Source: Bdellovibrionales bacterium RIFOXYD1_FULL_55_31 (GTDB lineage Bacteria; Bdellovibrionota; UBA1018). Taken from it: a stretch of 35,904 nucleotides of DNA. Positions 1,345-27,846 of this stretch are shown piece by piece (the stretch's first letter is position 1; each line of letters begins with the position of its first letter). The position numbers were made by a program, and so were the translations under genes. The stretch is taken from positions 65,521-101,424 of the forward strand of contig MEQK01000086.1 of the NCBI GenBank assembly GCA_001770175.1, given 5' to 3'. A model generated the notes under the pieces. It searched no databases. It was not told the origin of the DNA and saw only the letters and a program-made list of their open reading frames with translations.

Positions 1345-2958
1345 TCACGGGGCGACGCTGAATGCGAAAAGTCGATCACGCCCGACGACGTAAATTCTTC
1401 CATTTACGATAATCGGGCTCTGATGGCGCTGGACTCCGAAAATCCGATCGGCAGGACCCCCTCCCGCGAAAAGGACTTCGCCCGTTTCACCATCAAAGGC
1501 CTTTAGTTGCTGACTGCCTTCCGTTCCGGGACCGGTTCCATCCGCAGGTCCAACGGTCCAGACGATCGCGTCTGATCTGCCGTCCGGGCTCGAAACAATC
1601 GGCGACCCGAGCCCGTTCTGATTCGCACACCAGGCGATGCGAACCTTCGGAGGCGTGCCCGGGCTGACTTTGATGGCGGTCAGGTCACCTGGCTGGTCAC
1701 CAGGACATCCGATCCCGCGTCCATTGAAGACGAGATAGCTCCCGTAAGGGGATTCGTACTTCGCGATTGCGGCGATCGCTGAACTGGTTGTCACCCGTTT
1801 CGCGAAAACCTGCTTTCCGACTCCTCCGAGCCTATCCCTGTTCACGAGATAGGCGATGCCGTTCTTTCCGATTGAAATGAGAAGTTCCGAAGGATTCGAA
1901 TTTGGCACGTCGAAGGGTGTCGGCGCCGTTCCGCCGAGCCCGCGATCCCTCGTGTCCAGCGACCGCCAGTTCTTCGGCGTGAAGAAGTTGGTTCGATTCC
2001 GCTTGAATGCGGCATTCGTGTCGAGGCGGAGAATCGCTTGTCCGTCATTCCATGCTGAGACACCGAAGGTGCTTCCGGTCGCGATGAACGCGGAGGTGCC
2101 GTCCGAGGTGATTCCCGCTGGAGCCCAGACTCCGCCGCCCCGGGCGCGTGTGGCCCAACTCTTCACGATGCCGGGATCGGAGATCGATACGGCGATGACC
2201 CAACCGTGAAAGTTTCCGCATTCTCCGTGGTGTCCGGTGTAAGGCACGTAAAGCGTGTCGCCGATGAGGGCGAGGGCGCCTTGCTGGTTCTGAACCGAGG
2301 GATCGAAGCTGAATCGTTTGAAACGCGCGCTCTCGGCGACATCGACCGGCCATCCGGCCCGGATTGTTCCGTCGTCAACGGAGATCGCGAAGATCAGATG
2401 TTTTTTCGTGACACCTCCGTCGGGCGTTGTCATCGCATTCACGAACAGAGTTCTGGATTCCGGGTCGATGATGGGGGTCCCCGTTATTCCGACGGGATCG
2501 ATATTTCCGCATGGGAGGTGTTCTCGCGGGACCGGAGCGCCGAGTGTTTGCGACCAAACATTGGCTCCGGAACTTGCCTCAATGGCGTGCACGAGATTTC
2601 GTTCGGTGCTGATGATGATGAGATCGCGAAGTCCACCCGGAGTTTGGGCCGAGGGAAAGTAGAGCGGCTGGGCATAAACAGGCCCGTCGAGTTTCGCTAT
2701 GAACGCGGGATCAAGACGAAGCGCCGATGCTGTGTTCTTGCTCAGAATGGGATCAATGTATAGCCCGTCACGTGCCGGACTGTTTTGGTGCTGAAGAACC
2801 GGGGTTCCCCCCGTCCTTTTTGTCGCCATGGCTGTCGCTGCGGTGCCTGCTTCGGCTTTTTTTGAGCTGTGTGCGGCATTTGGCCGTTTGGGAAATTTTT
2901 CCGTGCAGCCGGTCAGGGTGAGCGCGACGAGAGACCACAGGATCAGTGAAACTTCCAT
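1345..2958 (-). CDS. PQQ-like beta-propeller lipoprotein
   Basis: N-terminal signal with lipobox 'ALTLTGC'; repeated blade text such as 'LVHAIEASSGANVWSQTLGAPV', 'LKAFDGETGEVLFAGG', 'IYVVGRDRLFAFSV'. Confidence 0.75.
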   Translation of the reverse strand: MEVSLILWSLVALTLTGCTEKFPKRPNAAHSSKKAEAGTAATAMATKRTGGTPVLQHQNSPARDGLYIDPILSKNTASALRLDPAFIAKLDGPVYAQPLYFPSAQTPGGLRDLIIISTERNLVHAIEASSGANVWSQTLGAPVPREHLPCGNIDPVGITGTPIIDPESRTLFVNAMTTPDGGVTKKHLIFAISVDDGTIRAGWPVDVAESARFKRFSFDPSVQNQQGALALIGDTLYVPYTGHHGECGNFHGWVIAVSISDPGIVKSWATRARGGGVWAPAGITSDGTSAFIATGSTFGVSAWNDGQAILRLDTNAAFKRNRTNFFTPKNWRSLDTRDRGLGGTAPTPFDVPNSNPSELLISIGKNGIAYLVNRDRLGGVGKQVFAKRVTTSSAIAAIAKYESPYGSYLVFNGRGIGCPGDQPGDLTAIKVSPGTPPKVRIAWCANQNGLGSPIVSSPDGRSDAIVWTVGPADGTGPGTEGSQQLKAFDGETGEVLFAGGGPADRIFGVQRHQSPIIVNGRIYVVGRDRLFAFSVAP

Positions 2959-3125: not shown

Positions 3126-4022
3126 ATGAAGAATATCCTGCTGCTGTTAGTTCTCAGCGCGTTTGCCTCTGGTCGAGCATACGGCGCGATCGAGCGCGCG
3201 TCCGTGGACAAGTGCAAAGGCTGTCATGAGGGCGTTGTGAACAGCTTCCTTGATGGCACGCATCACGGCAAAGCCTGGAGCAAGGACCAGACCGGCCCCA
3301 AGTACAATTGCGAGACTTGCCACGGAAACGGTGATCAGCACATCAATGACAATAAGATCGAATCGATCATCAGCTTTTCCAAGAAGTCCGCGCAAAAGCC
3401 CGGCAAACTCAACGACGTATGCATGAATTGCCACGGCAAGAGCTCCGATCTCATGTTCTGGAGCGCGGGCAAGCACAAACGCAATGACGTCGCTTGCTCG
3501 TCCTGTCATTCTATTCACAAAGAAAAACAGATCAGATCGGCATCCACTTGCTTCAGCTGTCACAAAGACATCCGGTCGCAAGTGAATCGTTTTTCTCACC
3601 ATCCGATTCTCGAAGGGAAAGTGACTTGCGTGGATTGTCACAACCCGCATGGAACCTTATCGCATGGAATGATCCGGGCTGAGACAAATAACCAGCTTTG
3701 TTACCGCTGTCACGCCGATAAACGCGGGCCCTTTGTTTTCGAACATCCCCCGGTCGAGGAAAACTGCATGTCCTGTCATAATCCGCACGGCAGTCAGCAT
3801 TTTCACCTTTTGACCCAGAAACTTCCGAACCTCTGTCAGGATTGCCATGATTTCAGTCGGCATCCGGGTACCCCTTATGACGGGAAAAAGGGTTTTCGCG
3901 GAACGAGGGACAACAAGCTCATCGCCAGGAGCTGTTTGAATTGTCACGACCGGATCCACGGAAGCATGGCTCCGCATAACCCGGCCTTTCCGGACAATAG
4001 CGGGAAGGTTTTCACCCGATGA
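3126..4022 (+). CDS. Decaheme c-type cytochrome, DmsE/MtrA/PioA family
   Basis: Signal peptide plus exactly ten CXXCH motifs (CKGCH, CETCH, CMNCH, CSSCH, CFSCH, CVDCH, CYRCH, CMSCH, CQDCH, CLNCH); 'RGPFVFEHPPVEENCMSCHNPHGS' and 'CLNCHDRIHGSMAP' typical of the family; directly upstream of an MtrB-like barrel. Confidence 0.93.
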   Translation: MKNILLLLVLSAFASGRAYGAIERASVDKCKGCHEGVVNSFLDGTHHGKAWSKDQTGPKYNCETCHGNGDQHINDNKIESIISFSKKSAQKPGKLNDVCMNCHGKSSDLMFWSAGKHKRNDVACSSCHSIHKEKQIRSASTCFSCHKDIRSQVNRFSHHPILEGKVTCVDCHNPHGTLSHGMIRAETNNQLCYRCHADKRGPFVFEHPPVEENCMSCHNPHGSQHFHLLTQKLPNLCQDCHDFSRHPGTPYDGKKGFRGTRDNKLIARSCLNCHDRIHGSMAPHNPAFPDNSGKVFTR

Positions 4023-4057
4023 CCGAGCGGAACGAGAACCCCGACCACAGCCCCCGA

Positions 4058-4090
4058 CCCCTAGTAAGCCCCTAGTAAGCCCCTAGTAAG
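4058..4090. repeat. Three perfect tandem copies of an 11-bp unit CCCCTAGTAAG
   Basis: 4058-4068, 4069-4079, 4080-4090 are identical; the last copy runs directly into GGAGG (4091-4095), the Shine-Dalgarno for ATG 4101. Confidence 0.97.
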
Positions 4091-4100
4091 GAGGACGAGC

Positions 4101-6209
4101 ATGAAAAGAACGACGTATTGGATCTCGTTTCAGCTGTTAATGGCGGGCGTATTCGCGTCCGCGGCATCGGCGGATTTTACGCTGGGCACCTGGGATCTTT
4201 CGGCCGGAGTGGGGCTGGGCGCTCAACTCACGAACATTCGGAAGTCGAGTGCGAAATGGGTGGAATACCGTGATTTTCGCAACTCGGCTCTGGCAAACGC
4301 CTACCTAAACGCCGAGAGAGCCTCATATCGTCTTAATTTGGAGGCGACGCGAATCGGGTTGGATGATCAGGAATACGTCCTTTCAGGCGGACGGTACGGA
4401 AGTTTTCAATACGATATTTTCTACAACTCGATCATTCATAACCTGTCCTTCAACGCGCTAACCTTCTATTCCAATCCAGGATCCGACACGCTCAACTGGG
4501 GTGCGGGTGTCAGTCCGACGGCCTCGACGACGTGGCCCTCGCGTTTTGACTACAGCGTCAAGCAAAAGAATTTCGGCGCGAACGCGAGTTATTTTTCCGA
4601 AGGGCCGATCTTTTACTCGATCGGTGTCGAGCAGTCAAAGCCGGGGGGGATTCGGCCGGTCGGAGTGAGCTTGACGACTCCGGGCGGGCCTGGCTTGGAA
4701 CTTCCGGAACCGATTGATCAAAAGAACAACACGGTCGCCATGGAAGTCGGCTACAAGCAGGCGAATTGGACCACCTCCCTGGATGGAAGCTTCAGCCGGT
4801 TCACGAACTTCGTTCCGTTTGTCGAGTTCAGGAACCCGAGCTTCACGGCAACCACGCCGACTGAGAAACTCTCCGTTCCGCCCTCCAATGATTACTGGAA
4901 GATCGGCGGCAAAGCGGCGTGGAATCCAATCGGCCTCAATTCATCGTTCCTCGTCCGGGCGAGTTACGCCAAGCTCACGAACGAGCAGAACTTGTTCGAA
5001 ACCATAGCAGACGGTACCGGAAATACCGGCGATCCGGTCGCCGTTCCTGCTCTAACGAATGCTTTCTCGGGAGATCTGCAATACGGCACCGCGAGTGCCG
5101 CGCTGACCTCCGAACCGGTTCAGGATCTCGAGACGAAGCTCTATTACAATTTTTCCCGCAAGTGGAATCAGAATACCTCGATTACGTTTACCGGAGCGAC
5201 TCCCGACGAAAATGTCACGAATGAACTCTTCTCCTATTACAAACACGACCTCGGGATCGACGTGGATTATCCGCTTCCGGCTAAAACGAAGCTTGGTCTC
5301 GGATATGAGTACATGAATGTCCATCGGCATCGCATTGACGCGATCGCAACGAGAGATCACGTCTACTACGCGGAATTGCGCAACAGTGAGGCGGATTTTG
5401 TTGCGGCTAAAGTAAAATACCAACGACTCAATCGCTCTTCGGATGCCGGTTATACGGAAGGCGGGTTGGAAGGAGATTTTCGAATTCTTTATTATCTGCG
5501 ACGATTTGACGTCACCAATAAAGGTCAGGACAAGGTCAGTGCGGCGCTCGATTTTACCCTCATGGATAACGTCGGGCTGGGTCTCGAGTACACTTATCGT
5601 CTGAACGATTATTATCAGACTATTTTTGGCCGCAATAAGGATCGCTCCAATGAGGTCTACGCAGATCTCAGTTATCAGGTCCCAAGCTTTGGGAGGTTTA
5701 CGATTTTTACCGACTATGAAGTCACGAAATACGAATCTTCGGCCCGAAGGTACAATCCCGGAATCGACCCCGCGCCCTCGACCCCGCCCGACGCGAACAA
5801 TTACAACTGGGGAGCGGGAATCGAGAACCGGACTTGGGGATGGGGTCTTGAAGCGGAACTTCCGATTGTCGAGAACAAGGTCGATTTCGGTGCCGGATGG
5901 CAGCAGTATCGCGGAAAGGGAAATACTGAATTCGGAGTTCAGTCCCTGGGAGCCGCTCCGGCCTACGCCGCGGCACCGATCGGGAATTTCGACAATTATC
6001 TCCGGAACACCCTGCGGGCCAGAGCTCGCTACGCTATTACCGAGAGCTTTACCGCGACTCTGGGGTACCTGTACGAGCTTTTCAAATATGAAGATATCAG
6101 TTTCGACGCGTACACGCTCACTCCAGGAACGAATACGCTGACCGGTGCTTTCTCGGATTACGATTACACCGGACATCTGGGTTATCTCGTCGCCGAAGTT
6201 CGGTTTTAA
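4101..6209 (+). CDS. MtrB/PioB family decaheme-associated outer-membrane beta-barrel protein
   Basis: Signal peptide, 'YGSFQYDIFYNSIIHNLSFNALTFY' characteristic of the family, alternating aromatic strands, terminal aromatic '...VAEVRF'; immediately downstream of a DmsE/MtrA decaheme. Confidence 0.9.
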   Translation: MKRTTYWISFQLLMAGVFASAASADFTLGTWDLSAGVGLGAQLTNIRKSSAKWVEYRDFRNSALANAYLNAERASYRLNLEATRIGLDDQEYVLSGGRYGSFQYDIFYNSIIHNLSFNALTFYSNPGSDTLNWGAGVSPTASTTWPSRFDYSVKQKNFGANASYFSEGPIFYSIGVEQSKPGGIRPVGVSLTTPGGPGLELPEPIDQKNNTVAMEVGYKQANWTTSLDGSFSRFTNFVPFVEFRNPSFTATTPTEKLSVPPSNDYWKIGGKAAWNPIGLNSSFLVRASYAKLTNEQNLFETIADGTGNTGDPVAVPALTNAFSGDLQYGTASAALTSEPVQDLETKLYYNFSRKWNQNTSITFTGATPDENVTNELFSYYKHDLGIDVDYPLPAKTKLGLGYEYMNVHRHRIDAIATRDHVYYAELRNSEADFVAAKVKYQRLNRSSDAGYTEGGLEGDFRILYYLRRFDVTNKGQDKVSAALDFTLMDNVGLGLEYTYRLNDYYQTIFGRNKDRSNEVYADLSYQVPSFGRFTIFTDYEVTKYESSARRYNPGIDPAPSTPPDANNYNWGAGIENRTWGWGLEAELPIVENKVDFGAGWQQYRGKGNTEFGVQSLGAAPAYAAAPIGNFDNYLRNTLRARARYAITESFTATLGYLYELFKYEDISFDAYTLTPGTNTLTGAFSDYDYTGHLGYLVAEVRF

Positions 6210-6243
6210 CGCATATGCAAAATAAAAAAGGAAAGGGGCTCTC

Positions 6244-7032
6244 ATGATTTGTTCTCGTTTTATGAATTTGGCTGGTCTTTTCGTCCTGCTCGTAACCCTG
6301 ACGGCAACCACGGGATGCGGAAAAAAGGGAATCCTGGACCATGTTGTCGTAACCCCGACCGAAAACTTTCAGAACGTTCGGGTGTCGCTGTTTTTCAAGA
6401 GTGACGTTCAGCTCCTGCTCGAGGGAAAGGTCGGAGTCGGAGAGTATGGTCATGTTTACATGTACCCATGGACCGCGGGACGGCCTTTCGAAATGGGATT
6501 CGAACTCAAGTCATCCGTCTTTCACGAGCCCGGATACGTGAACCTGAAGCCCACGATGTATCTTCCGAACGGCGCGCCGATCGGCCTTCCGTACGCCGTC
6601 GTCGAGGTTCGGGGTGAGCAACCGGTCACGCCCACCTTCGATCTTTATGGGTATGTTGATGTAGAGCACCTTTCCTGGCTCGGAATGGCAGGTGTTTTTG
6701 AGATTTCTGAAGGCAGCGACATTCCAGCCGGGCTGACATTAACCCAGGTGTTTTTGCGAGACGAAGCCGGGGTTCCGACCCTCTTCGCGAGTGTCCTCGG
6801 GCCCGCGTTTAACACGGACGGCTCGGTAAAACAGAGAGCCGGTCTCGCGCTGTTCGCGAATGTGAAGGCGCTGGCGCTCAAGACACGAGCTGGTGAGCCA
6901 AACGTGCTCAAGCCGGAAAAGAAGATCTACGTGACCGGTCCGATCGCGACGGATACGCCCAGTAAGAAGGCTGATATGGTTCGGCTGCAACGAGAGATCA
7001 TAGCTGAGGCGAATCGCAGCGCGGGCCGGTAA
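6244..7032 (+). CDS. Uncharacterised outer-membrane-type lipoprotein
   Basis: Signal plus lipobox 'TATTGC'; no CXXCH; no family recognised. Good SD (GGAAAGGGG). Confidence 0.7.
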   Translation: MICSRFMNLAGLFVLLVTLTATTGCGKKGILDHVVVTPTENFQNVRVSLFFKSDVQLLLEGKVGVGEYGHVYMYPWTAGRPFEMGFELKSSVFHEPGYVNLKPTMYLPNGAPIGLPYAVVEVRGEQPVTPTFDLYGYVDVEHLSWLGMAGVFEISEGSDIPAGLTLTQVFLRDEAGVPTLFASVLGPAFNTDGSVKQRAGLALFANVKALALKTRAGEPNVLKPEKKIYVTGPIATDTPSKKADMVRLQREIIAEANRSAGR

Positions 7033-7062: not shown

Positions 7063-8319
7063 ATGAAACGGTGCTTGCGGTTCTTGGTGTCCGTTTTCGC
7101 GATCATGGCTCTGCCCCTAGGTTCGGCTCTTGCGGACAATTGCCTTCACGAGGGATTTCTTCCCAGAAACGAAATGCGCATACCTCCTGATTCGGTATTC
7201 GTGAACGGTATCACAGAGGCAAAGTTTGACGAAATACTGGATCGGACAGTCCGGTTTTACGCTCCCGTCATTTCGAGCCGCGGCGGAGTTCTGGAGCTTG
7301 ATAGAAATTGGCAGGACGGAACCGTGAACGCGTACGCCGAAAGAAACGGTCGTCGCTGGATCATTAGGATGTTCGGTGGTCTTGCGCGACATCCGGCGAT
7401 CACCGAAGACGGCTTTGCTCTGATCACGTGTCACGAGATCGGACATCACATCGGGGGGGCGCCGAAGTACCGTCGAAGCTGGGCGGCGAATGAAGGGCAG
7501 TCGGACTATTTTGCGACTTTGAAGTGCCTCCGAAATCTGTTTTCGCAGGACGACAACGTCGGTATCGTGAGCCGGATGAAGCTTGATCCTGCCGTGGTTT
7601 CGAGTTGTGAAAAGAGCTTTGCCGCTCCGGGTGACGTTGCGCTTTGCGAGCGCAATGCGATGGCGGGCCTGTCAGTAGGGAAGCTTGCAAGAGAGATAAG
7701 CGGTGGAGCAGGGCCGGAAGTCAGCTTCAGTACCCCCGACCGAAACGTCGTCGCGGAGACCTATGACGATCACCCCGCCGCGCAATGCCGTTTGGATACT
7801 TACTTTGGCGGAGTGAACTGCCGGGTTCCCGTATCGCATGAACTTAGCGAAACCGATGCGGCGGCAGGCACTTGTTCGGAAGAACTCAATTTCGAGAGCG
7901 GTTTCAGACCGCGCTGCTGGTACAAGCCGTCCTCAAGTACTGGACCAAATCCGCCGCAAGCCGGCATCGCGCGGGCGCCGCTCCTGCTCGGACAAACCCA
8001 CTTGGTCCTGACGAATCCGTATACCGCGCTCCCGGTGCATTATGACGTTTCCGAGTTTCCGGACGCGTTCGGAGTTTACGTGGAGGTTTCCCAACCGAAC
8101 CGGGAGTTTATCGTGCCGAACGGCACCATTCCCGATCCCTACCGGCTGCTCTGGTTCAGCAGAATCGGCGTGAGGGGCGATGTAGTCATGACACCAGTTC
8201 GGGACCTGCCGGGGTGGGGAACGTATTCCGTTCGGATCATTCCGCTCGATAGCAGTGGAACATCTTCGGTCGGTCGTTTTTCGAATTCAGCAAAGCTTGT
8301 TTTGAGTCCGGCTCGGTGA
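7063..8319 (+). CDS. Secreted zinc-metalloprotease-like protein (HEXXH)
   Basis: Signal peptide 'LRFLVSVFAIMALPLGSALA'; 'ALITCHEIGHHIGGAPKYRRSWAANEGQSDYFATLKC' = HEXXH plus downstream E-x-x-S-D, similar in layout to gluzincin/M48-type sites. Confidence 0.65.
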   Translation: MKRCLRFLVSVFAIMALPLGSALADNCLHEGFLPRNEMRIPPDSVFVNGITEAKFDEILDRTVRFYAPVISSRGGVLELDRNWQDGTVNAYAERNGRRWIIRMFGGLARHPAITEDGFALITCHEIGHHIGGAPKYRRSWAANEGQSDYFATLKCLRNLFSQDDNVGIVSRMKLDPAVVSSCEKSFAAPGDVALCERNAMAGLSVGKLAREISGGAGPEVSFSTPDRNVVAETYDDHPAAQCRLDTYFGGVNCRVPVSHELSETDAAAGTCSEELNFESGFRPRCWYKPSSSTGPNPPQAGIARAPLLLGQTHLVLTNPYTALPVHYDVSEFPDAFGVYVEVSQPNREFIVPNGTIPDPYRLLWFSRIGVRGDVVMTPVRDLPGWGTYSVRIIPLDSSGTSSVGRFSNSAKLVLSPAR

Positions 8320-8344
8320 CAGTTCCGACGAAAGGAGGCTCCGT

Positions 8345-9865
8345 ATGCAGTGGTCGGGTATGCTCCTGGTTGCCATCTTTGCGACGTTCTCGATTCCGAA
8401 GGCCGCGGTCAGCGCTGAAGGCGAGAGCCTTGTCCGCTTTCCTGCACGGTACTTCGTGAAATTCAGGTACGAACTCTCGGTCCGCGAGATCAAACAAAGA
8501 TTCGCCAGAGTCGGGTTAAAGCTACAAGGCCAAATCCCGGAAATTCAAGTGTACGTGGCAGATGCTGTGGATCCCGACCGGTTCGAGGAGACCGGAAAGG
8601 AACTGGTCAACAGTTCTCCCGATGTCCTCTATCTGGAAAAGGACCGGGTCGTCAGGGCGCTCGAGAGTCATGAAAGCCATGATTCGTCGGCCTCTCCGAA
8701 CGATCCGAAGTTTCAACAGCAGAAGGCGATGATGCGAATCGCTCCTGAAGCCGCTTGGAAGCTTTCGAAGGGATCTCGTGATGTGCTCGTCGCGGTTACC
8801 GATACCGGCGTGGCGTTGAGCCATCCGGAACTCAAGAATCAGATCTGGACGAATCCGAATGAACTCCCCGGGAACGGAATTGATGATGATCGAAACGGCT
8901 TTGTTGATGACGTGCATGGATGGAACTTTGTCAGGACAAACAACAATGATCCGCCGGAGCCAGAAGATGACGAGGGACATGGCACGCATGTCGCTGGAAT
9001 CATCGGAGCCGAGGGGAATAATTCTGAAGGTATTGCCGGAATCAACTGGCAGGTGTCGATCCTGCCCGTGAAGTTTCTCGATTCCGACGGGTCTGGCACG
9101 CTCGAAGGGGGAGTTCGCTCCATTCTATACGCCGTTAAACACGGTGCGCGACTCATCAATGCGAGCTGGGGCGATAGCGAGACCTCAAGGACGTTGCAAG
9201 ATGCGATCGAGTACGCGTTTTCGAAGGGATCGCTTCTCATCGCGGCTGCCGCAAACAGTACAAAAGACACTGATCTCAAGCCGAACTACCCGTCGGCTGA
9301 TGTTTCTCTGGGCGTGATTTCGGTCGCAAGCTCCTCGCGGACCGGAACTCTCTCCGGCTTTTCGAATTACGGCATTCTTTCAGTCGATCTCGTGGCGCCG
9401 GGTTCGGACGTGCTGTCCACTTACCTTCGCGGGAAATACGCGAAAATGAGCGGAACTTCGATGGCGGCACCCATGGTGACCGGCATAGGAGCACTGATGC
9501 TGTCCCTTGAACCCGAACTGAGTGCACTTGAGCTACGTAACGGGATGTTGAACGCGGTCGAGGAGAGTCCCGGGTATGAAGGAAAAATTTCGACGAGGGG
9601 TGACATCAGGGCGGATTTCGCGCTCGAGCAGCTCCAGAAGGGGTTTCAGATCTGGCCATCGCGGCTGACCATCGCACTGAACTCACCGTACCCCCTGACG
9701 GCGTATCGTCCTGAGGGGACCGTTCAATGGGAGGTCAGCGACGAATCATTGGCGCTAATTGACGCGAACGGCGTCCTCACGTTTTTGAAAGCAGGTGAAA
9801 TTCAGGTCCGCGCTCGTGATGGCTCGGGTAAGCAAACAAGTACCGCTTGGATCAGAGGCCGCTGA
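8345..9865 (+). CDS. S8 family subtilisin-like serine protease with C-terminal Big2-like domain
   Basis: Catalytic motifs 'AVTDTGVALSHPE' (Asp), 'GHGTHVAGI' (His), 'GTSMAAPMVTG' (Ser); propeptide-like N-terminus; C-terminal 'VQWEVSDESLALIDANGVLTFLKAGEIQVRARDG'. Confidence 0.95.
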   Translation: MQWSGMLLVAIFATFSIPKAAVSAEGESLVRFPARYFVKFRYELSVREIKQRFARVGLKLQGQIPEIQVYVADAVDPDRFEETGKELVNSSPDVLYLEKDRVVRALESHESHDSSASPNDPKFQQQKAMMRIAPEAAWKLSKGSRDVLVAVTDTGVALSHPELKNQIWTNPNELPGNGIDDDRNGFVDDVHGWNFVRTNNNDPPEPEDDEGHGTHVAGIIGAEGNNSEGIAGINWQVSILPVKFLDSDGSGTLEGGVRSILYAVKHGARLINASWGDSETSRTLQDAIEYAFSKGSLLIAAAANSTKDTDLKPNYPSADVSLGVISVASSSRTGTLSGFSNYGILSVDLVAPGSDVLSTYLRGKYAKMSGTSMAAPMVTGIGALMLSLEPELSALELRNGMLNAVEESPGYEGKISTRGDIRADFALEQLQKGFQIWPSRLTIALNSPYPLTAYRPEGTVQWEVSDESLALIDANGVLTFLKAGEIQVRARDGSGKQTSTAWIRGR

Positions 9866-9925
9866 GCCTGTGCCATCCTGAGCGCCTGCCGGACGGCTGG
9901 AACACCACTTGCCTTTCTTCCTTGA

Positions 9926-12900
9926 ATGACTCTCTCTGAAATCGCCATTCGTCGTCCGGTTTTCGCGTGGATGCTGATGGCGGCCCTGATCATATTCGGA
10001 GGCGTATCATTCAGTCGAATGGGCGTGAGCCAGCTCCCCGACGTGGACTTTCCGGTGGTCACGATCTCGCTCTCCCTTCTGGGCGCCGCGCCGGAGGTCA
10101 TGGAGACGCAGGTCGTTGATCCCATCGAAGACGCGGTCATGAGCGTCGAAGGGGTCCGGAGTGTCACCTCGTCTTCTTACGAGGGAAATGCGACGATCAC
10201 GGTCGAGCTCGATCTGGATCGCGACATCGATGCCGCGCTTCAGGAAGTCCAGACGAAAGTGGTGCAGACGCAGCGGCTATTGCCGCGGAATATGGATCCC
10301 GCCGTTATCACGAAAACGAACCCCGAGGATCAACCGATTCTCTGGCTGGCGCTGGGGAGCAAGGAACACTCCGTTCGCGAACTCATGATTTACGTCAGGG
10401 ATCAGCTGAAAGATCAGTTCACGTCCCTGCCCGGCGTGGGCGAGGTCATGCTGGGTGGCTACATCGAGCCGAATATGCGGGTTTGGGTCTCACAACGGGC
10501 ATTGGCGCGCTACGCGCTTACGGTGAACGACGTGATCTCGGCGATTCAGAACGAGAGCTCAGAACCGCCGAGTGGATATCTTGATATCAAAGACAAGGAA
10601 TCGAATGTCCGGACGCTCGGGGAAGTGAAGTCGGCGGCCGAAATGGAGCGGATCACGATCAACCTCAGGGGAGGTCAGCCGAATTTCACGCCGATTCCGC
10701 TCGCCAAGGTGGCGCGGGTTGAAGACGGCCTGAACGATATTCGACGCATCAGCCGCGCGAACGGTTTGCCCGCGGTTGGACTTGGCATTCGGAAGCAACG
10801 CGGGTCGAACGCGGTTCAGGTGGCGCATGGCGTGAAACAGAAAATGGCGGAGGTCGCGCCGAGATTGCCCAAAGGCATGGTTCTGAACGTCAACTTTGAC
10901 AGCACTCAATTCATCGAGGATTCAGTTCGAGAGCTGAATTTCACCCTGGTTCTATCGGCGTTGCTGACCGCTTTGGTGTGCTGGCTGTTTCTGGGGTCTT
11001 GGTCCTCAACGATCAATGTTCTTCTCGCGATTCCGACTTCCGTTATCGGCTCGTTCATTGTGCTCTATTTCGCCGGTTTCACGCTGAATACGTTCACTCT
11101 TCTGGGGCTCGCGCTCGCGATCGGCATCGTCGTCGACGATGCGATCATGGTCCTGGAAAACATCGCGCGACATCGCGAACGGGGCGAGGCGCTGGTCGAG
11201 GGCGCCATCAACGGTTCGCGCGAGATCACTTTCGCGGCGGTGGCGGCGACTATAGCGATTATCGCCATTTTTCTGCCGGTTGCCTTTATGACCGGGATAA
11301 TCGGAAGATTCTTCTTCCAATTCGGCGTCACGATCAGTGTGGCGGTGCTTCTGTCCCTGACCGAAGCGCTTACGTTGACTCCGATGCGCTGTTCGCAATT
11401 CTTAAAAGTCGGGGAGAGGCGAACTCGGATCGGCAAGTGGGTCGAGAGCGGTTTTGACTGGAGTCGTGGCTTCTATCGCCGATCACTCGCGGTTGCCCTG
11501 AATCATCGGCTCAAAGTGGTGCTGGCCTCACTCTCAATATTCATACTCGGTTTCATGACCCTGGCGCTGCTGAACAAGGAATTCGTCCCGGCACAGGATC
11601 AGAGTATGTTCATGGTCCGGTTGCAAACCCCAGTCGGCTCGTCGATCGCCTATACGGACAGCAAGTTCAAGGAGGCCGAAGCCTTCCTGTCGTCGCGTCC
11701 CGAGATCAGCAGATACTACTCGGCCGTCGGCGGTTTTGGTGGGGGCGAGGTGAACAGCGGGATCATCTTCGCGAGTATGAAGCCTCCTGAGGAGCGGACA
11801 CAAACGCAGGAGGAGTTCATGACTTTCGCAAGAAAGTCCTTGAACGCCATTCCCAACCTCAAAGCGAGCCTTCAGGATCTCTCGATCAGGGGGTTCACGG
11901 CATCACGCGGATTTCCCGTCGAATTTGCGGTGAAGGGGCCGGATTGGGATCGCTTGGCGCTCTACTCCAAGACGATCATGGAAGAGTTGAACAAAACCGG
12001 GCTGGTGACCGATCTTGACACTGACTACAAAGAAGGAAAACCCGAAATCCGCATCGTGCCGGACCGGGAACGTGCGGCCGAGCGCGCCGTGAATGTAGCG
12101 GCCGTCGGGGATGTCGTCAGCGCGATGATCGGCGGGGTGATTGTCGGCCAGTACTCGCAGGGAGGTCATCGATATGACATCCGGGTTCGGCTTCGGAAAG
12201 AGGAGCGGGATCAGCCGGATGATATTCGAGCGCTTTTCGTCAGAAACGACCGGGGCGAGCTGATTCGGCTCTCCGAAGTCGTGAAAGTGGAACAAAGGAC
12301 GGCCCTTCAGGTGATTTCGCGTCGCGATCGTCAAAGGGCGGTCACGATTTTCGGAAACGTGAGGACTGGACGTTCACAGGCGGATGCTTTGAACGCGGTC
12401 AATCGCATCGCGGCTCAGGTGCTCCCGGCGGGCTACAGTGTCGTCTTGAGTGGAAGTGCTCAGACGTTCAAGGAATCGTTCGCGAGCCTGGTTTTCGTTC
12501 TCATTCTGGGTCTGCTTGTTTCTTATATGGTGCTTGCATCGCAATTCAACAGTTTCATTGATCCGGTGACGGTCCTGATGGCGCTTCCGTTCAGCGTTTC
12601 AGGCGCCTTCGTGGCTCTATTGATCGGGAATCAAACGGTCAATATTTACAGCCTGATCGGCCTGATTCTCCTGATGGGAATCGTGAAGAAGAATTCGATT
12701 CTCCTGGTCGATTTCACCAATCAGATCCGAATACGAGCGCATCGAGGGCCGGATGAGGCACTTCTGGAGGCGTGCCCGCTGCGGCTGCGTCCGATAGTCA
12801 TGACCTCCCTCGCGACCATCGCGGGCGCAATCCCACCGGCTCTCGCGATCGGGCCGGGAGCGGAAACCCGGGTGCCCATGGCGATTGCCGTGATCGGGGG

Positions 12901-13012
12901 GATCGTGGTTTCGACGGCTCTGACGTTAATTGTAGTCCCTTGTGTCTACAGTCTCTCCGCGCGTCATGACGCGAGAAGTCGACGGGAACGTTTAGGGAAA
13001 AAGGCGGCATGA
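9926..13012 (+). CDS. RND (HAE1/AcrB-type) efflux transporter permease
   Basis: 1028 aa; 'AIRRPVFAWMLMAALIIFGGVSFSRMGVSQLPDVDFPVV', 'GIVVDDAIMVLENIARH', 'LIGLILLMGIVKKNSILLVDF' hallmark sequences. Confidence 0.96.
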   Translation: MTLSEIAIRRPVFAWMLMAALIIFGGVSFSRMGVSQLPDVDFPVVTISLSLLGAAPEVMETQVVDPIEDAVMSVEGVRSVTSSSYEGNATITVELDLDRDIDAALQEVQTKVVQTQRLLPRNMDPAVITKTNPEDQPILWLALGSKEHSVRELMIYVRDQLKDQFTSLPGVGEVMLGGYIEPNMRVWVSQRALARYALTVNDVISAIQNESSEPPSGYLDIKDKESNVRTLGEVKSAAEMERITINLRGGQPNFTPIPLAKVARVEDGLNDIRRISRANGLPAVGLGIRKQRGSNAVQVAHGVKQKMAEVAPRLPKGMVLNVNFDSTQFIEDSVRELNFTLVLSALLTALVCWLFLGSWSSTINVLLAIPTSVIGSFIVLYFAGFTLNTFTLLGLALAIGIVVDDAIMVLENIARHRERGEALVEGAINGSREITFAAVAATIAIIAIFLPVAFMTGIIGRFFFQFGVTISVAVLLSLTEALTLTPMRCSQFLKVGERRTRIGKWVESGFDWSRGFYRRSLAVALNHRLKVVLASLSIFILGFMTLALLNKEFVPAQDQSMFMVRLQTPVGSSIAYTDSKFKEAEAFLSSRPEISRYYSAVGGFGGGEVNSGIIFASMKPPEERTQTQEEFMTFARKSLNAIPNLKASLQDLSIRGFTASRGFPVEFAVKGPDWDRLALYSKTIMEELNKTGLVTDLDTDYKEGKPEIRIVPDRERAAERAVNVAAVGDVVSAMIGGVIVGQYSQGGHRYDIRVRLRKEERDQPDDIRALFVRNDRGELIRLSEVVKVEQRTALQVISRRDRQRAVTIFGNVRTGRSQADALNAVNRIAAQVLPAGYSVVLSGSAQTFKESFASLVFVLILGLLVSYMVLASQFNSFIDPVTVLMALPFSVSGAFVALLIGNQTVNIYSLIGLILLMGIVKKNSILLVDFTNQIRIRAHRGPDEALLEACPLRLRPIVMTSLATIAGAIPPALAIGPGAETRVPMAIAVIGGIVVSTALTLIVVPCVYSLSARHDARSRRERLGKKAA

Positions 13013-13078
13013 TTTCGCGGATTTCGCTCAAGTGTTTCGATTCATGAACCGATGAGCTTTTGAGGAGATCCGTGCAGA

Positions 13079-15169
13079 ATGTCCGCCACGGGACTAAAGG
13101 ACGGTAAACGTAAACTTGCCGCCATCATGTTCACCGATATCGTTCGGTACAGTGCGCTCAGCCACACGAACGAGGCACTCGCGCTTGAATTGCTGGAGGA
13201 GCATCGCGCGATCGCGAGGCGGATCTTCGCCGAGTTTCGCGGAAAAGAAATCAAGACGATCGGTGATGCGTTTCTCGTCACGTTCGAAAGCGCTCTTGAC
13301 GCCGTTGAATGCGCGACTCACCTTCAGGTCGCGCATCGGGAAAGAAATCGCGGAGTCGCTTCGACCCGGGCAATGAAGCTTCGGATCGGGATTCATCTCG
13401 GTGATGTGGTGGCATCTGAGGGGGATGTTTACGGCGATGGCGTGAATATCGCGGCCAGGTTGCAATACCTGGCAAAACCGGGCGCGATTTGCGTGAGCGG
13501 TTCGGTATTTTACCAGATCGAGAGCAAGGTGAAGTGCCCCGTCAGTCAGCTGGGGACCCGAAAGCTCAAAAATATTTCCAAGGCGATTGCGGTTTATGCC
13601 CTTCAGATCGACTGCGAGTCGGAAACGCTTCGGAGCGGGAATGGTTTCAAACCGTTCCGAGTTCTAAAACGCTCGAGCATTTTACGATGGTCCGCAGCGG
13701 TTTTCCTCGCGTTTGTAGCCGCGGGTCTCGGCTGGTACTTCGTCGAGAATGGCAGGATTCAAAGCCGTCCAGAAACGGCGATTCGCGAAACACTTCGTGT
13801 CGCGGTACTGCCGTTTGAAAGCATCAGTTTGACCCACGATGATGAATACTTGTCGGAAGGCATGACCGAAGAGCTCATCTCGAATCTTTCCAGGTTGCGG
13901 CAGCTCCGGGTCCTGGCGCGGGCATCGGTGGTCCAGTACAAGTCGGCTTCGAAATCGGCTGATCAGATCGGAAAGGAACTGAAAGTTTCGGCTCTGATCC
14001 AGGGCAGCGTCAGAAAAATGGGTGATCTTCTGAGGATTACCGTTCAGTTCGTTGATGTCGCCAGCCAGGAGGCGAGGTGGTCCCGCGAGTATAACGGAAG
14101 AGTTGATGACATATTCGAATTGCAGTCGAAAATAGCGGATGAGATCGTCGCCCATTTTCGCGGTCGCAGCCTTGCAAGCGCCCTGGTCGAGGGTCCGGGA
14201 CGCGATTCCTTCGTCCCGGATGCCGAGGCATACAATGAATTTCTGAAGGGCCGCTATTATCTCAACCGGCGGACCGAGGAGAGTCTGTTTCAGGGGATTG
14301 GCGAATTGAAGAAGTCCATTCAGCGTGAGTCTCGATTCGCGCCGGCTTACGCCGCACTGGCGAATGCGGCAGGTTTGCAGTCGTATTATGGATTGCTCCG
14401 ACCCAGAGAAGCGATGAAGCAGGTGTCGAAGTATGCGGAAAAAAGTCTTTCCATGGATCCACAATCGGTCGACGCCTTGGTGTCTCTCGCCGAAGCCGAA
14501 GCGTACTACCATTTCAACGCTAAAAAGGCGGAGGAGCTTTTCCAGCGCGCCATCGAGATGAATCCAATGCATCCGATCGCTCACAGCTGGTATGCAGAAT
14601 TTCTTGCCAGTCGGGGACGATTTGCGGAAGCGATTACCGAAATCAACCAGGCTCTGGCGCTCGATCCGTTGTCATTGATCATTAAAACGGCAGCGGCGAA
14701 CGTAAACTATTTCGCCTCGCGCTTCGAAGACAGCATTGCGCACGGCCGGACCGCGATGGAAATGGATCCGTCATTCATGCTGCCGTATTTCTGGCTCGGA
14801 ATGGCACGGGTCCAGACTTCGAAATTCGGTGAAGGAGTTCGTCTTCTGGAAAAGGCCAGCCGTCTTTCAGGGGAGACCCCGATGATGAAGGCGGCTCTGG
14901 CTTACGGCTACGCCAAGGCCGGTAAACTCGAGGAAGCGGAGAAGATCCTGCGGGAACTCAGTGAAATGAGCGCGCGTCGCTATGTCTCGGCCTACTATCT
15001 AGCGTCTGTTTACGTGGCCCTCGGCCGAAAAGAGAAGGCGATGCTTTTCCTGAATAAAGCCTTTGAGGAGCGTTCCAGTCACATTTCCCTGGTGAAGGTG
15101 GACCCGGTATTCAAAGCGCTACGCGGCGATTCCGACTTCGATCTCTTCGTTCGCAAGTTGCCGTTCTAA
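13079..15169 (+). CDS. Class III adenylate/guanylate cyclase with TM, TolB/FlgO-like domain and TPR repeats
   Basis: 'IMFTDIVRYSALSH', 'GKEIKTIGDAFLVTF', 'LRIGIHLGDVVASEGDVYGDGVNIAARLQ'; TM 'SAAVFLAFVAAGLGWYFV'; 'AVLPFESIS...YLSEGMTEELISNLSRLRQLRVLARAS'; C-terminal TPRs. Confidence 0.92.
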   Translation: MSATGLKDGKRKLAAIMFTDIVRYSALSHTNEALALELLEEHRAIARRIFAEFRGKEIKTIGDAFLVTFESALDAVECATHLQVAHRERNRGVASTRAMKLRIGIHLGDVVASEGDVYGDGVNIAARLQYLAKPGAICVSGSVFYQIESKVKCPVSQLGTRKLKNISKAIAVYALQIDCESETLRSGNGFKPFRVLKRSSILRWSAAVFLAFVAAGLGWYFVENGRIQSRPETAIRETLRVAVLPFESISLTHDDEYLSEGMTEELISNLSRLRQLRVLARASVVQYKSASKSADQIGKELKVSALIQGSVRKMGDLLRITVQFVDVASQEARWSREYNGRVDDIFELQSKIADEIVAHFRGRSLASALVEGPGRDSFVPDAEAYNEFLKGRYYLNRRTEESLFQGIGELKKSIQRESRFAPAYAALANAAGLQSYYGLLRPREAMKQVSKYAEKSLSMDPQSVDALVSLAEAEAYYHFNAKKAEELFQRAIEMNPMHPIAHSWYAEFLASRGRFAEAITEINQALALDPLSLIIKTAAANVNYFASRFEDSIAHGRTAMEMDPSFMLPYFWLGMARVQTSKFGEGVRLLEKASRLSGETPMMKAALAYGYAKAGKLEEAEKILRELSEMSARRYVSAYYLASVYVALGRKEKAMLFLNKAFEERSSHISLVKVDPVFKALRGDSDFDLFVRKLPF

Positions 15170-15181
15170 TCGTGCGGATCA

Positions 15182-16051
15182 TCAACTCGCGACGATTTCT
15201 CCGCCGTTCGGATGCAGGATCTGTCCTGACATGAAGGACGCATCTTCTGACGCGAGAAAAACGTAGCTCGGCCCCACTTCGCTCGGTTGTCCCGGGCGCC
15301 GCATCGGGTAATTCTCACCGAACTTTCCGACGTGGTCGGACGTGAACGTGGAAGGAATCAGAGGCGTCCAGATCGGTCCGGGCGCGACCCCGTTCACCCG
15401 GATTTCCCTGTCCCTGAGCGCTTCGGAAAGAGATCGAGTGAATGCCACGATGGCACCTTTGGTGGCCGAATAGTCAAGAAGATGAGCGCTCCCCTTGTAT
15501 GCGGTGACCGATGTCGTGTTGATGATGGCGGCGCCCTCCTTGAGACTCGGAAGGGCGGCTTTCACGAGATAGAAGAAGGCAAAAATATTGGTCTTGAAGG
15601 TTCGCTCGAGCTGTTGAGAAGAAATCTCCTCGATCTCTTTGGAAGGGTGTTGTTCGGCGGCATTATTCACGAGAATGTCCAAATGACCGAAGATCCTGAC
15701 GGTCTCCTCGACGAGTCTCACGCAGAAAAGTTCGTCGCCAACGTCTCCGGAAAGGACCTCGCACCGCGTATTCTCAAGCTCCACGAGACGTTTCGTTTCG
15801 AGGGCATCGGGATGTTCGTTCAGATACCCGATCATGACGTCCGCGCCTTCTCTCGCGTAATGGACCGCGATGGAGCGGCCGATTCCGCTGTCTCCTCCCG
15901 TGACGAGGGCCACTTTACCGGCCAATTTTCCGCTCCCACGGTAGTCGGCACGGATATACTCGGGGCGCGGCGACATTTCCGATTCGATGCCCGGCTCGTG
16001 ATCCTGTTTCTGGGGGACGGGTTTAGGGTAGCGTCTCGTTCCTTGCGTCAT
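15182..16051 (-). CDS. SDR family oxidoreductase (YghA-like)
   Basis: 'KVALVTGGDSGIGRSIAVHYAREGADV' Rossmann motif, 'NNAAEQ', 'YSATKGAI' active site, 'RVNGVAPGPIWTPLIPS'. Confidence 0.93.
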   Translation of the reverse strand: MTQGTRRYPKPVPQKQDHEPGIESEMSPRPEYIRADYRGSGKLAGKVALVTGGDSGIGRSIAVHYAREGADVMIGYLNEHPDALETKRLVELENTRCEVLSGDVGDELFCVRLVEETVRIFGHLDILVNNAAEQHPSKEIEEISSQQLERTFKTNIFAFFYLVKAALPSLKEGAAIINTTSVTAYKGSAHLLDYSATKGAIVAFTRSLSEALRDREIRVNGVAPGPIWTPLIPSTFTSDHVGKFGENYPMRRPGQPSEVGPSYVFLASEDASFMSGQILHPNGGEIVAS

Positions 16052-16072
16052 ATGGAAACCTCCCGCCGAGTT

Positions 16073-17830
16073 TCAAATCAGCTGTCGAACCCTGTCGGCG
16101 AGAATCGTCATCACGATCTTTTCCCGATTGGGTTGGCCACGGGCGAGTGATTCGGCGAACTTGAGCGCCTGATCGGGTTTGAGCTTGGCGGGCATCGGCG
16201 GTTCGTGCGGATCGACCTCGGCCTCGATGAGCACGGGACCTGGGGTCTCGAGTGCGCGGCTGAGCGTTTCGCCGCAAAGCGCGGGGTCGTCTATTTTGAA
16301 GCCTGTTCCTCCGCACGCGTTCGCAAAGCCGGTGAAATCCATCGGCTGAAGATCGCAGCCGTATTCCGGATTACCGAGAAAAACCATCTGTTCCCATTTG
16401 ATCTGGCCCAGTGTGTTGTTCTTGAGAACGACCAGCTTAACGTTAAGCTTATGTTTCACACAGGTCAGGAATTCCGCCATCATCATTGAAAAGCCACCAT
16501 CACCGACAAAGGCGACGATTTGACGGTCAGGATGCGCCAGGGCCGCCCCGATCGCGTACGGGAGGCCACAACCCATCGTCGCGAGGTTGCCTGAGAGCGA
16601 GTGCATCTGACCGCGGCGGACTGGGATCTGTCGCGCAAACCAGGTTGCGACGGTGCCGGAATCGCACGACAGGATCGCGTCGGGCGAGAGGCGCTGGCCG
16701 AGTTCCCAAGCGACTACTTGCGGTTTCATCGGTATGGACTTCACGCTTCCGCGCGCTTTCATGAGCTGCCACCACTTTTCGGTTTTCGCCTGCGCGTCCT
16801 GAAGAAATGCGCGATGGTCATTCCTTCGTAGAAGTGGGACAAGATTCCGGAGGCTCTGCTGAGAGTCGCCGACAAGACCGACGTTCACGGGATAGCGTAA
16901 GCCGATCCGTTGAGGGTTCGAATCGATTTGCACGGCTTGGCACTGACCGGGCTTCGGCAGGAACTCGATATATGGAAAGGAACTCCCGACGATGAGCAGG
17001 GTATCGCATTCTTCCATCGCTTCCTGTGACGGTCGAGTCCCCAGCAATCCTATTCCTCCGGTGGTATAAATGCTGTCGTCGGGAACAACCGCCTTTCCGA
17101 GTAACGCCTTGATGATGGGCGCGCCAAGAAGTTCCGCTATTTGGATCAGCTCATCGGTCGCACCGAAGGCGCCTCGCCCGGCGAGAATGGCGATTTTCCT
17201 GCCGTGATTCAGGATCTTCGCGGCTCGCGTGAAATCTTCAGTCGACGGCGTCCGCGAGTCTTGAGTCATGACCTGGGAAACATGATGAGAAACGTTGCGC
17301 GGCGACGATTCCTTTCGCGAGACCTCCTTGTCCTGGTAGTCGGTCGGAATCGTGATGTGCGCAACGCCGCGTTTTGACAAAGCTGAACGGCATGCGAGTT
17401 CCGTGACGTTCTCGACGTGCTCGGGTCCCATGACACGGGCATTGTACAGTGCGACGTCTTCGAAAAGTTTATCGAGCTCGACATCCTGCTGGGCAAAGGT
17501 CGAAAGAAGATCATGAAAATGCATCCCGGTAATGGCCAGAACGGGAGCGCCATCGAGTTTTGCGTCATACAGGCCGTTTAAAAGGTGAATGCCGCCGGGA
17601 CCGCTTGTTGCGAGACAGACGCCCAGCTTGCCGCTGTACTTCGCATACCCGCAGGCCGCGAGCGCCGCGGCTTCCTCATGTCGTACCTGAATGAAGCGGA
17701 TATGTTCCTGCTTTTTGCGCAACGCCTCCATGATGCCGTTGATCCCGTCACCTGGCATACCGAAGATCACCTCTACGCCCCAGTTCATCAGGACGTTCAG
17801 CATGATATCTGATGCTGTCATCGTGGCCAT
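16073..17830 (-). CDS. Thiamine-diphosphate-dependent enzyme, pyruvate oxidase/acetolactate synthase-like
   Basis: 'VIFGMPGDGINGIMEAL', 'RHEEAAALAACGYAKYSGKLGVCLATSGPGGIHLLNGLYDAK', ThDP motif 'GDGGFSMMMAEFLTCVKHKLNVKLVVLKNN'. Pyruvate oxidase (PoxB) is the closest match by eye. Confidence 0.87.
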   Translation of the reverse strand: MATMTASDIMLNVLMNWGVEVIFGMPGDGINGIMEALRKKQEHIRFIQVRHEEAAALAACGYAKYSGKLGVCLATSGPGGIHLLNGLYDAKLDGAPVLAITGMHFHDLLSTFAQQDVELDKLFEDVALYNARVMGPEHVENVTELACRSALSKRGVAHITIPTDYQDKEVSRKESSPRNVSHHVSQVMTQDSRTPSTEDFTRAAKILNHGRKIAILAGRGAFGATDELIQIAELLGAPIIKALLGKAVVPDDSIYTTGGIGLLGTRPSQEAMEECDTLLIVGSSFPYIEFLPKPGQCQAVQIDSNPQRIGLRYPVNVGLVGDSQQSLRNLVPLLRRNDHRAFLQDAQAKTEKWWQLMKARGSVKSIPMKPQVVAWELGQRLSPDAILSCDSGTVATWFARQIPVRRGQMHSLSGNLATMGCGLPYAIGAALAHPDRQIVAFVGDGGFSMMMAEFLTCVKHKLNVKLVVLKNNTLGQIKWEQMVFLGNPEYGCDLQPMDFTGFANACGGTGFKIDDPALCGETLSRALETPGPVLIEAEVDPHEPPMPAKLKPDQALKFAESLARGQPNREKIVMTILADRVRQLI

Positions 17831-17854
17831 GGTCGATCCTTTCGAAATAGCCGG

Positions 17855-18079
17855 CTAAGCGGCAAGATCCCGCTCAATTTCTGAAGTTTCACGGGAATGT
17901 CGGAAACCTATCCAAATGATAGTTGCGATCAGGGCGATTCCCGCTAACGCGAGCCCCCCTTTTTGGCGGATGCCGCCAGGTGGTTTTACATCTTCACCGC
18001 GTTCAATTCGGGCCAGAGCGAGATTCTGGCTGAAGCTTTCGGCAACGTCGTAATTTGGGGAGTTTTCATTTCCAAGCAT
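17855..18079 (-). CDS. Small single-TM hypothetical protein
   Basis: 'GLALAGIALIATIIWIGF' TM; ORF track starts at 18163, but an internal ATG at 18079 gives a more natural 74-aa product 'MLGNENSPNYDVAESF...'. Confidence 0.45.
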   Translation of the reverse strand: MLGNENSPNYDVAESFSQNLALARIERGEDVKPPGGIRQKGGLALAGIALIATIIWIGFRHSRETSEIERDLAA

Positions 18080-18183
18080 CGTTTTCACTCGTTTCGGAGT
18101 TCTATATGCAAAGGGCATCCCGGAAGCAGTGCGGGATGACCGTGAGCGTGGGCTTTGCAGCAATCTGAGTTGAGGGTGATTCC

Positions 18184-19302
18184 ATGACTGTGACCACGAT
18201 CAGCCGAGGTCCCGCGATTTCAGGGTTGCGGACCAGTGTTTATGAAATTCCAACCGCTACGCCGTTGGAGGCCGACGCGACCCTGAGTTGGGGCAAAACG
18301 ATTCTCGTCGTTGTTGAAGCGGATTCGGCTGGGAAAACCGGATTGGGCTACGCGTATGCGACGCGTGCTGCCGCCGAATTGATTCATGCAACGCTTGCGA
18401 AGGAAGTGATCGGCGCGCCCGCATTCGATATTCCCCTGATCCGGCAAAAGCTCATCCGCTTGATTCGTGACCACGGTCGATCCGGGATAGCGGCAATGGC
18501 TATTTCCATGATCGACTCGGCGCTCTGGGATCTGAAAGCGAGAATTCTTGACTTGCCGCTGGCATCTGTTCTGGGACAGGTCAGAAGCGGGGTTCCGGTA
18601 TACGGGAGCGGAGGCTTCACATCATTCAGTCTGAATGAACTTGAACGTCATTTTGGACGATGGATCGCGATGGGACTATCCCGCGTGAAGATGAAAGTGG
18701 GGGGCGATCCAGAGGGAGGCGCTGATCTTGAGCGCGTTCGGCTCGTTCGGAACGCAATCGGAATCGGTTCCGAACTCTTCGTTGACGCAGATGGGGTGTA
18801 CCGGTTGAAGCGGGCCATGGAAATGGCAGAGAGGTTCTCGGAGTTCGGTGTCTCGTGGTTTGAGGAGCCCGTATCGGCAGAGGACCTACCCGGACTTCGT
18901 TCGCTCCGTGATCGTGCTCCGTTCGGGATCGAAATCGCGGCCGGAGAGTATGGCTATGAGCAGGGCTATTTTTTTAGAATGCTGCAGAGCGGGACTGTCG
19001 ATGTCTTGCAGGCGGATGCCACTCGGTGCGGCGGGGTTTCTGGTTTTCTGGAAATAGGCTCCCTATGTGAGGCGTTCGGAACGCCTCTTTCCGCGAGTGG
19101 CGCACCATCGCTTCACCTCCACATCTGCGCTGCGGTGAATCGCGCTCGTAACTTGGAATATTTTTATGACCATGTCGGAATCGAAAAAATGCTGTTCGAT
19201 GGTTTTATCGAACCGAAGGGCGGCCTGCTTTATCCTGATCTCAGCCGACCGGGACTCGGGATCGAATTCAAGAAAAGCGATGCGTTGAGATTCGCGGCTT
19301 GA
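18184..19302 (+). CDS. Enolase superfamily (mandelate racemase/muconate lactonizing-like) enzyme
   Basis: KxK motif 'SRVKMKVGG', metal ligands 'LFVDADGVY', 'WFEEPV', 'IAAGEYGYE', then 'DVLQADATRCGGVSGFLEI'. Confidence 0.9.
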   Translation: MTVTTISRGPAISGLRTSVYEIPTATPLEADATLSWGKTILVVVEADSAGKTGLGYAYATRAAAELIHATLAKEVIGAPAFDIPLIRQKLIRLIRDHGRSGIAAMAISMIDSALWDLKARILDLPLASVLGQVRSGVPVYGSGGFTSFSLNELERHFGRWIAMGLSRVKMKVGGDPEGGADLERVRLVRNAIGIGSELFVDADGVYRLKRAMEMAERFSEFGVSWFEEPVSAEDLPGLRSLRDRAPFGIEIAAGEYGYEQGYFFRMLQSGTVDVLQADATRCGGVSGFLEIGSLCEAFGTPLSASGAPSLHLHICAAVNRARNLEYFYDHVGIEKMLFDGFIEPKGGLLYPDLSRPGLGIEFKKSDALRFAA

Positions 19303-19401
19303 GGCGTTCGCGGCATTTCGGTTGCAGAGATCCGAAGGGAATAGCTCATTGTGACCCGGTGCGAACTACTGGCGAACTAAATCCGAATGGAGGAAATATC
19401 G

Positions 19402-19998
19402 ATGAAAACGACTATCTTGACAGCGCTGGTCGCCGTCAGTTTGGTGGCCGCGCTGCCTGTCCAGGCACAAAGCAAGGCAGCTGGCGGCGGCACAAGTTAT
19501 CTGGCCGGACACCTCGGCGCGGGATTCCCGAACAACGGGCAGGGTACGAACCTCATGTTCGGCGGTGCTTTCGGTTTTTTCTGGACGAGTGAGTATAGCG
19601 GCGCCGTGTTCATTGACCACATGAATGTCGGCTCGATCAGCTCGTCTCTTTTGACGCTGAATCAGAGCAGCCAGGGTATTACGCTGTTTGGCGTGGAGGC
19701 GAATCGCGAGTTGAGCGATCTTGTCGAGGGCCTCCAGGTCGGAATCAAGGTCGGGCTGACTTCCACGTCGGTCACCGCGACGGCCCCCGGGGTATTCACC
19801 GATAGCCAGAGCAACATGAATTTCTTCATTGGGCCGAAGGTCGCGTACGATTACCCGGTCGTCGGGAACTTGAGAATTGGCGGTGAAGGTAACTTTCTGT
19901 TCAAGTCGACGAGCGACGAACCGATTACAGGATTCGCGACCGTCAATGGAACCGGCACGATGTTCAATCTTCTTGGAGTCGTGAAATACCTCTTTTGA
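19402..19998 (+). CDS. Small outer-membrane beta-barrel protein
   Basis: Signal 'TALVAVSLVAALPVQAQ', Gly/aromatic alternating strands, C-terminal 'GVVKYLF'. ATG 19402 is preceded by GGAGG; the track start at 19387 would contain the SD. Confidence 0.72.
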   Translation: MKTTILTALVAVSLVAALPVQAQSKAAGGGTSYLAGHLGAGFPNNGQGTNLMFGGAFGFFWTSEYSGAVFIDHMNVGSISSSLLTLNQSSQGITLFGVEANRELSDLVEGLQVGIKVGLTSTSVTATAPGVFTDSQSNMNFFIGPKVAYDYPVVGNLRIGGEGNFLFKSTSDEPITGFATVNGTGTMFNLLGVVKYLF

Positions 19999-20005
19999 GG
20001 GGCTT

Positions 20006-23753: not shown

Positions 23754-23822
23754 GTTTCGTCTCCTTTGGTGCTTTCCACGCGGGGCGCGCGATGCAAAAT
23801 CGAAACCAGGAAACCTAGGAGT

Positions 23823-25586: not shown

Positions 25587-25605
25587 ATTCGGGCACGAAG
25601 AAGGC

Positions 25606-27681: not shown

Positions 27682-27846
27682 GGGATGTGGCCGATTTTCT
27701 GTGTAAAATACGTCGTATGCGGATTAGGCGTGATATTGACAAATCCAGGTACGCGCTTCAAGGCGAGATCCGGGTCCTGAGCATTTTTATAAGGCCGGCT
27801 GTTTGGAGGCGAACCTTATTGTCTTCCGTTAGGCAATCCTTCGGCC

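Follow-up and report, generated by a model that had tools for sequence, protein, structure and literature searches.

The window analysed here, a 35.9-kb stretch of DNA, forms the end of a 101-kb contig in a MAG of 3.69 Mb that is 89% complete (G000 in our genome set) and represents an uncultured member of the Bdellovibrionota. It carries genes for a decahaem cytochrome, an outer-membrane barrel and a lipoprotein, in this order (Table 1).

Table 1. Features in and around the mtrAB locus, in window positions.
Feature	Position	Strand	Description	Basis
Divergent lipoprotein	1345-2958	-	lipoprotein divergent from mtrA	weak PQQ-type beta-propeller match below the Pfam cut-off
mtrA/dmsE-type	3126-4022	+	decahaem c-type cytochrome, 298 aa, signal peptide, 10 CXXCH	family model, PDB match
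Repeat CCCCTAGTAAG	4058-4090		three perfect 11-bp copies directly upstream of the mtrB ribosome-binding site	
mtrB/pioB-type	4101-6209	+	26-strand outer-membrane barrel, 702 aa, no cysteine	PF11854, structure model
Downstream lipoprotein	6244-7032	+	262 aa, family of this bacterial class; neighbour, probably no conduit part	lipobox C25; unlinked in relatives
M48-like	7063-8319	+	secreted protein, weakly like peptidase M48, phylum-wide family; not a conduit part	

The first two genes of the series had been read as a decahaem DmsE/MtrA-type cytochrome and an MtrB/PioB barrel, and profile searches confirm both assignments. The cytochrome lies above the DmsE-family cut-off (TIGR03508; 248.7 vs. 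192.2 bits) and matches MtrA of S. baltica by sequence (6R2Q chain A; 1e-55). It contains exactly 10 CXXCH motifs, and no other frame of at least 60 codons in the window bears this motif. In an alignment of the window cytochrome with six orthologues (seven Bdellovibrionota sequences), every CXXCH is kept and exactly ten further His residues are invariant. Ten bis-histidine haems would require just this many, suggesting a distal His for each haem, with the ligation itself putative.

The barrel belongs to the MtrB_PioB family (PF11854; E = 1.2e-63, 216 bits vs. a cut-off of 23) and stays under the cut-off of TIGR03509, the MtrB/PioB decaheme-associated protein model (156.4 vs. 240.05 bits). We hence assign it to PF11854 and not to the narrower TIGR03509 subfamily. 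Its structure model, built from nine sequences (mean pLDDT 74), has 26 strands of at least 8 residues, and the best structural match is Shewanella MtrB (6R2Q chain B; E 4.6e-32, TM 0.74/0.79), with the next match far behind. By sequence, Shewanella MtrB is matched at 5.2e-11. The protein contains no cysteine at all, hence the N-terminal CXXC of Shewanella MtrB is absent, as the original prediction had noted. The motif is likewise missing from all 10 MtrB sequences of Bdellovibrionota that we examined, and its absence is, as far as these ten sequences go, the norm in the phylum. According to Wee et al. (2014, as relayed in PMC12175506), the CXXC of Shewanella MtrB is a signature motif of metal-reducing Gammaproteobacteria.

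The lipoprotein gene follows mtrB after 34 bp, has its own ribosome-binding site and is not separated from mtrB by a terminator-like site. In the window genome, mtrB and the lipoprotein gene probably share a transcript, which alone does not prove joint function. In the lipoprotein, C25 belongs to a lipobox (TTGC), and this Cys is retained throughout 16 homologues. The protein bears no CXXCH and has no match in Pfam, NCBIfam or PDB sequences, in line with its first description as a lipoprotein of no recognised family. Beyond the lipidated C25 the mature protein has no Cys. Apart from the start Met and the Cys of the lipobox, the invariant positions of the 16 homologues are occupied by G, P, D, W, A, and N; a conserved His, internal Met or second Cys was not found among them. 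The structure model is confident (pLDDT 86.5, pTM 0.83), and a fold search of the PDB returned nothing meaningful (best E 0.065, TM 0.14). The protein represents a real, uncharacterised family of this bacterial class that has no Pfam entry and that our searches found only in Bdellovibrionota, the named relatives being Bdellovibrionales, Oligoflexia, and Bacteriovoracaceae MAGs. The window lipoprotein forms a clade with its homologues from the genomes G019 and G003 in the tree (support 100/99), and these two genomes share a second lipoprotein paralogue with the window genome.

With mtrA and mtrB adjacent and no mtrC in the cluster, the locus is an MtrAB core without an extracellular cytochrome. 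The original prediction had presented the missing third partner as a novelty. This view does not stand, as cytochrome-less MtrAB is established (PMC6831781; MtoAB; PMC13200544) and the conduit has already been published for this very group (PMC13200544). In the latter study, the one direct precedent that we found in the literature on MtrB in Bdellovibrionota, mtrAB is reported from two MAGs of class UBA1018 with the outer-membrane cytochrome absent (PMC13200544, 2026). Compared by published description, the Bdellovibrionota MAGs FG-1 and FG-2 (class/family UBA1018) resemble the window in having mtrA and mtrB adjacent and no gene for an outer-membrane cytochrome. FG-1 has an extra upstream gene with an MtrA-like N-terminus, which the window does not have, whereas the window has the lipoprotein downstream of mtrB. 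The MAG Kiruna3_bin-3974 (genus CAIRTR01, class UBA1018; PMC13200544) corresponds to our relative G017, which a genome search assigns to the family of the window genome. We therefore infer that the window genome lies in the UBA1018 group, and it appears to belong to a family with published mtrAB MAGs (PMC13200544).

Better-studied systems share this layout. PioAB is an experimentally studied conduit without an extracellular cytochrome (PMC6831781), and PioAB(C) of Rhodopseudomonas palustris TIE-1 combines a decahaem cytochrome and a barrel as the window does. Unlike PioABC, the window has no gene for a HiPIP (PioC) next to mtrAB, as had been predicted: in its mature form, the protein encoded downstream contains no Cys but that of the lipobox, and it matches no family. 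In comparison with PioA as described (PMC6831781), the window MtrA of 298 aa seems to be without the cleaved N-terminal extension. Gallionella and Sideroxydans also possess MtrAB homologues and no MtrC (PMC8805035), and their MtoAB (PMC8805035; PMC10654088) is in this respect like the window; in contrast to MtoAB, no mtoD or cymA adjoins the window genes and a NapC/NrfH-type protein is encoded on another contig. Shewanella MtrCAB (6R2Q; PMC7198977) resembles the window in MtrA by sequence and in MtrB by sequence and fold, but the window is without an adjacent OmcA/MtrC cytochrome and without the CXXC of MtrB. In the absence of MtrC the last haem of MtrA is exposed and soluble Fe(III) chelates are still reducible (PMC7198977).

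The statement that an outer-surface multihaem cytochrome is missing holds for the cluster and not for the genome as a whole. A genome-wide scan found no member of the OmcA/MtrC family over the cut-off (TIGR03507; best 15 bits vs. 209) and many other multihaem cytochromes. Nine other contigs bear paired haem motifs, and at least two predicted multihaem lipoproteins are among their products: an 11-haem protein with a canonical lipobox (LSSC) on contig 157 and a 25-haem protein of 777 aa with a lipoprotein-like leader on contig 71. Either could, judging from its sequence, be a surface partner of the conduit. The window together with an 89% complete MAG is insufficient to claim genome-wide absence of a surface multihaem cytochrome. 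It is possible, albeit the less favoured reading, that the extracellular partner is encoded elsewhere and that the system resembles MtrCAB with scattered genes, which would be compatible with an ordinary conduit of two genes at this locus. Besides these two proteins, a 14-haem cytochrome directly after mtrAB in the relative G009 is in favour of such an arrangement, as is the finding that mtrC can sit apart from mtrAB in Desulfobacterota (PMC12133095). However, no protein of the genome exceeds the OmcA/MtrC cut-off, and nothing ties the other multihaem cytochromes to mtrAB. Other contigs also encode candidate electron suppliers: the NapC/NrfH-type protein (contig 69) and nonahaem proteins, found on contig 138 and, next to a cytochrome b561-type protein, on contig 198. 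Separately, contig 71 holds a dense multihaem cluster (bases 8000-27736) encoding 25-, 11-, 7-, 7-, 6-, 4-, and 2-haem proteins and a secreted protein of 416 aa that has no Pfam/NCBIfam match and may be a barrel. This cluster is possibly a second, unrelated outer-membrane conduit.

Next, we consider the lipoprotein in relatives. Each species is represented by a single genome, in most cases a fragmented MAG, hence a missing gene may reflect an assembly gap; gene calls are mechanical ORFs. Of 144 genomes surveyed in the phylum, 15 have a member of the lipoprotein family and 8 have MtrB. Both occur together in five genomes and are adjacent only in the window; in the other four (G003, G009, G017, and G019) they lie on different contigs. 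Ten genomes have the lipoprotein family without MtrB. Within the class, mtrAB is present in 7 of 62 genomes (9 copies including that of the window), one further copy comes from another class of the phylum, and the class-wide search reaching these 62 genomes gave no further MtrB. We judged linkage only for mtrAB copies whose contig extends over the next gene, and 9/9 other copies qualify. The lipoprotein is next to none of these nine, although four of the genomes carry it elsewhere. A scan of the collection with a five-row lipoprotein alignment returned 7 loci, all already known and none beside mtrAB.

Instead, the gene after mtrB is pgeF/yfiH in G003 and G019, a monohaem c cytochrome in G002 (contig 33) and a 14-haem cytochrome in both copies of G009. 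In G025 and on contig 49 of G002, a different lipoprotein is followed by cytochrome c biogenesis genes, no same-strand partner is apparent in G017, and cytochrome bd genes lie farther downstream in G065. A relationship between the window lipoprotein and the post-mtrB lipoprotein of G002 and G025 was considered and rejected, as the profile comparison aligns the signal peptides only. The latter protein (about 210 aa, 60% identical between the two genomes, no family match) is itself linked to mtrAB in both of them, which belong to one genus (G025/G002: L117 7071-7766; L118 10576-11235). In G009, the 14-haem cytochrome of 550 aa is found on contigs 229 and 230, the two copies being 98% identical in the cytochrome. 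It is no OmcA/MtrC member by NCBIfam and could, from its sequence and position, serve as an alternative outer partner. G008 (contig 225) has an mtrA homologue with 9 CXXCH seen and mtrB in pieces in different frames, perhaps due to decay or sequencing error.

The original prediction had proposed the lipoprotein as a third partner that caps or anchors the barrel or relays electrons, and had named its co-occurrence with MtrAB in other genomes as a check. Linkage in relatives, whose absence had been named beforehand as a refutation, is indeed absent: the two are adjacent nowhere else, and in G003 and G019 mtrAB is on another contig than the lipoprotein and is followed by pgeF/yfiH. We hence reject the lipoprotein as a conserved mtrAB partner. 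A weaker version is improbable, namely that it serves the conduit as an accessory (cap, anchor or assembly factor) whose gene normally lies apart from mtrAB and has joined it in this genome. The 34-bp spacing to mtrB is consistent with it, as is the presence of mtrAB in all three genomes with a window-type lipoprotein (G000, G003, and G019). Furthermore, genomes of the taxonomic family have the lipoprotein and MtrB together more often than chance would predict (hypergeometric p = 0.018 without the window genome; p = 0.036 among genomes of at least 3 Mb), which is only a hint since these statistics ignore ancestry and genome size is not fully controlled. Against it, the lipoprotein is unlinked in every other mtrAB genome, G002 and G025 have mtrAB with no lipoprotein of the window family found, and the genomes with the lipoprotein and no MtrB often carry it beside a 5'-nucleotidase. 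The second paralogue shared by G000, G003, and G019 moreover points to a lineage duplication rather than to selection together with mtrAB. A lipoprotein-assisted MtrAB variant, in which the window-type lipoprotein would be a haem-free MtrAB accessory in a few sister genera of this family and be encoded apart in others, is likewise improbable. Haem-free electron exchange by the lipoprotein as a third redox partner, which its position alone would suggest, can be dismissed as very unlikely because the 16 homologues conserve neither a His nor an internal Met nor a second Cys that could ligate a metal or Fe-S cluster, C25 is the only Cys of the mature protein and the fold matches no redox protein.

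We therefore favour, with a probability of roughly 0.85, an ordinary two-part outer-membrane conduit of the PioAB/MtoAB layout behind whose mtrB the lipoprotein happens to sit. In this conduit, the decahaem MtrA/DmsE-type cytochrome would be sheathed by the 26-strand MtrB/PioB barrel. Electrons would travel through ten bis-histidine haems that link the periplasm with the outer haem, the direction of flow not being readable from the sequence. Even without MtrC, the outer haem could then come into contact with acceptors or donors in soluble or chelated form, or with a surface cytochrome encoded elsewhere. On the periplasmic side, a NapC/NrfH-type or a cytochrome b-linked multihaem quinol dehydrogenase is the probable supplier. 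The lipoprotein would be one paralogue of a class-level family that is encoded behind mtrB by chance. Six loci of this family have a UshA-like 5'-nucleotidase as a neighbour, and a homologue of the M48-like protein adjoins the lipoprotein homologue in G003 too, with the order swapped. A general envelope or extracellular role together with these usual neighbours is thus more likely for the lipoprotein than a role in the conduit.

The findings do not establish a new three-part system; they add genomes to the report of MtrC-less MtrAB conduits in relatives of the predatory Bdellovibrio. The genes that follow mtrAB vary freely in Bdellovibrionota and include a 14-haem cytochrome in one genome. A published account treats MtrAB as a core that is extended by partners (PMC8805035), and the variable downstream genes support such a self-sufficient core in this phylum.
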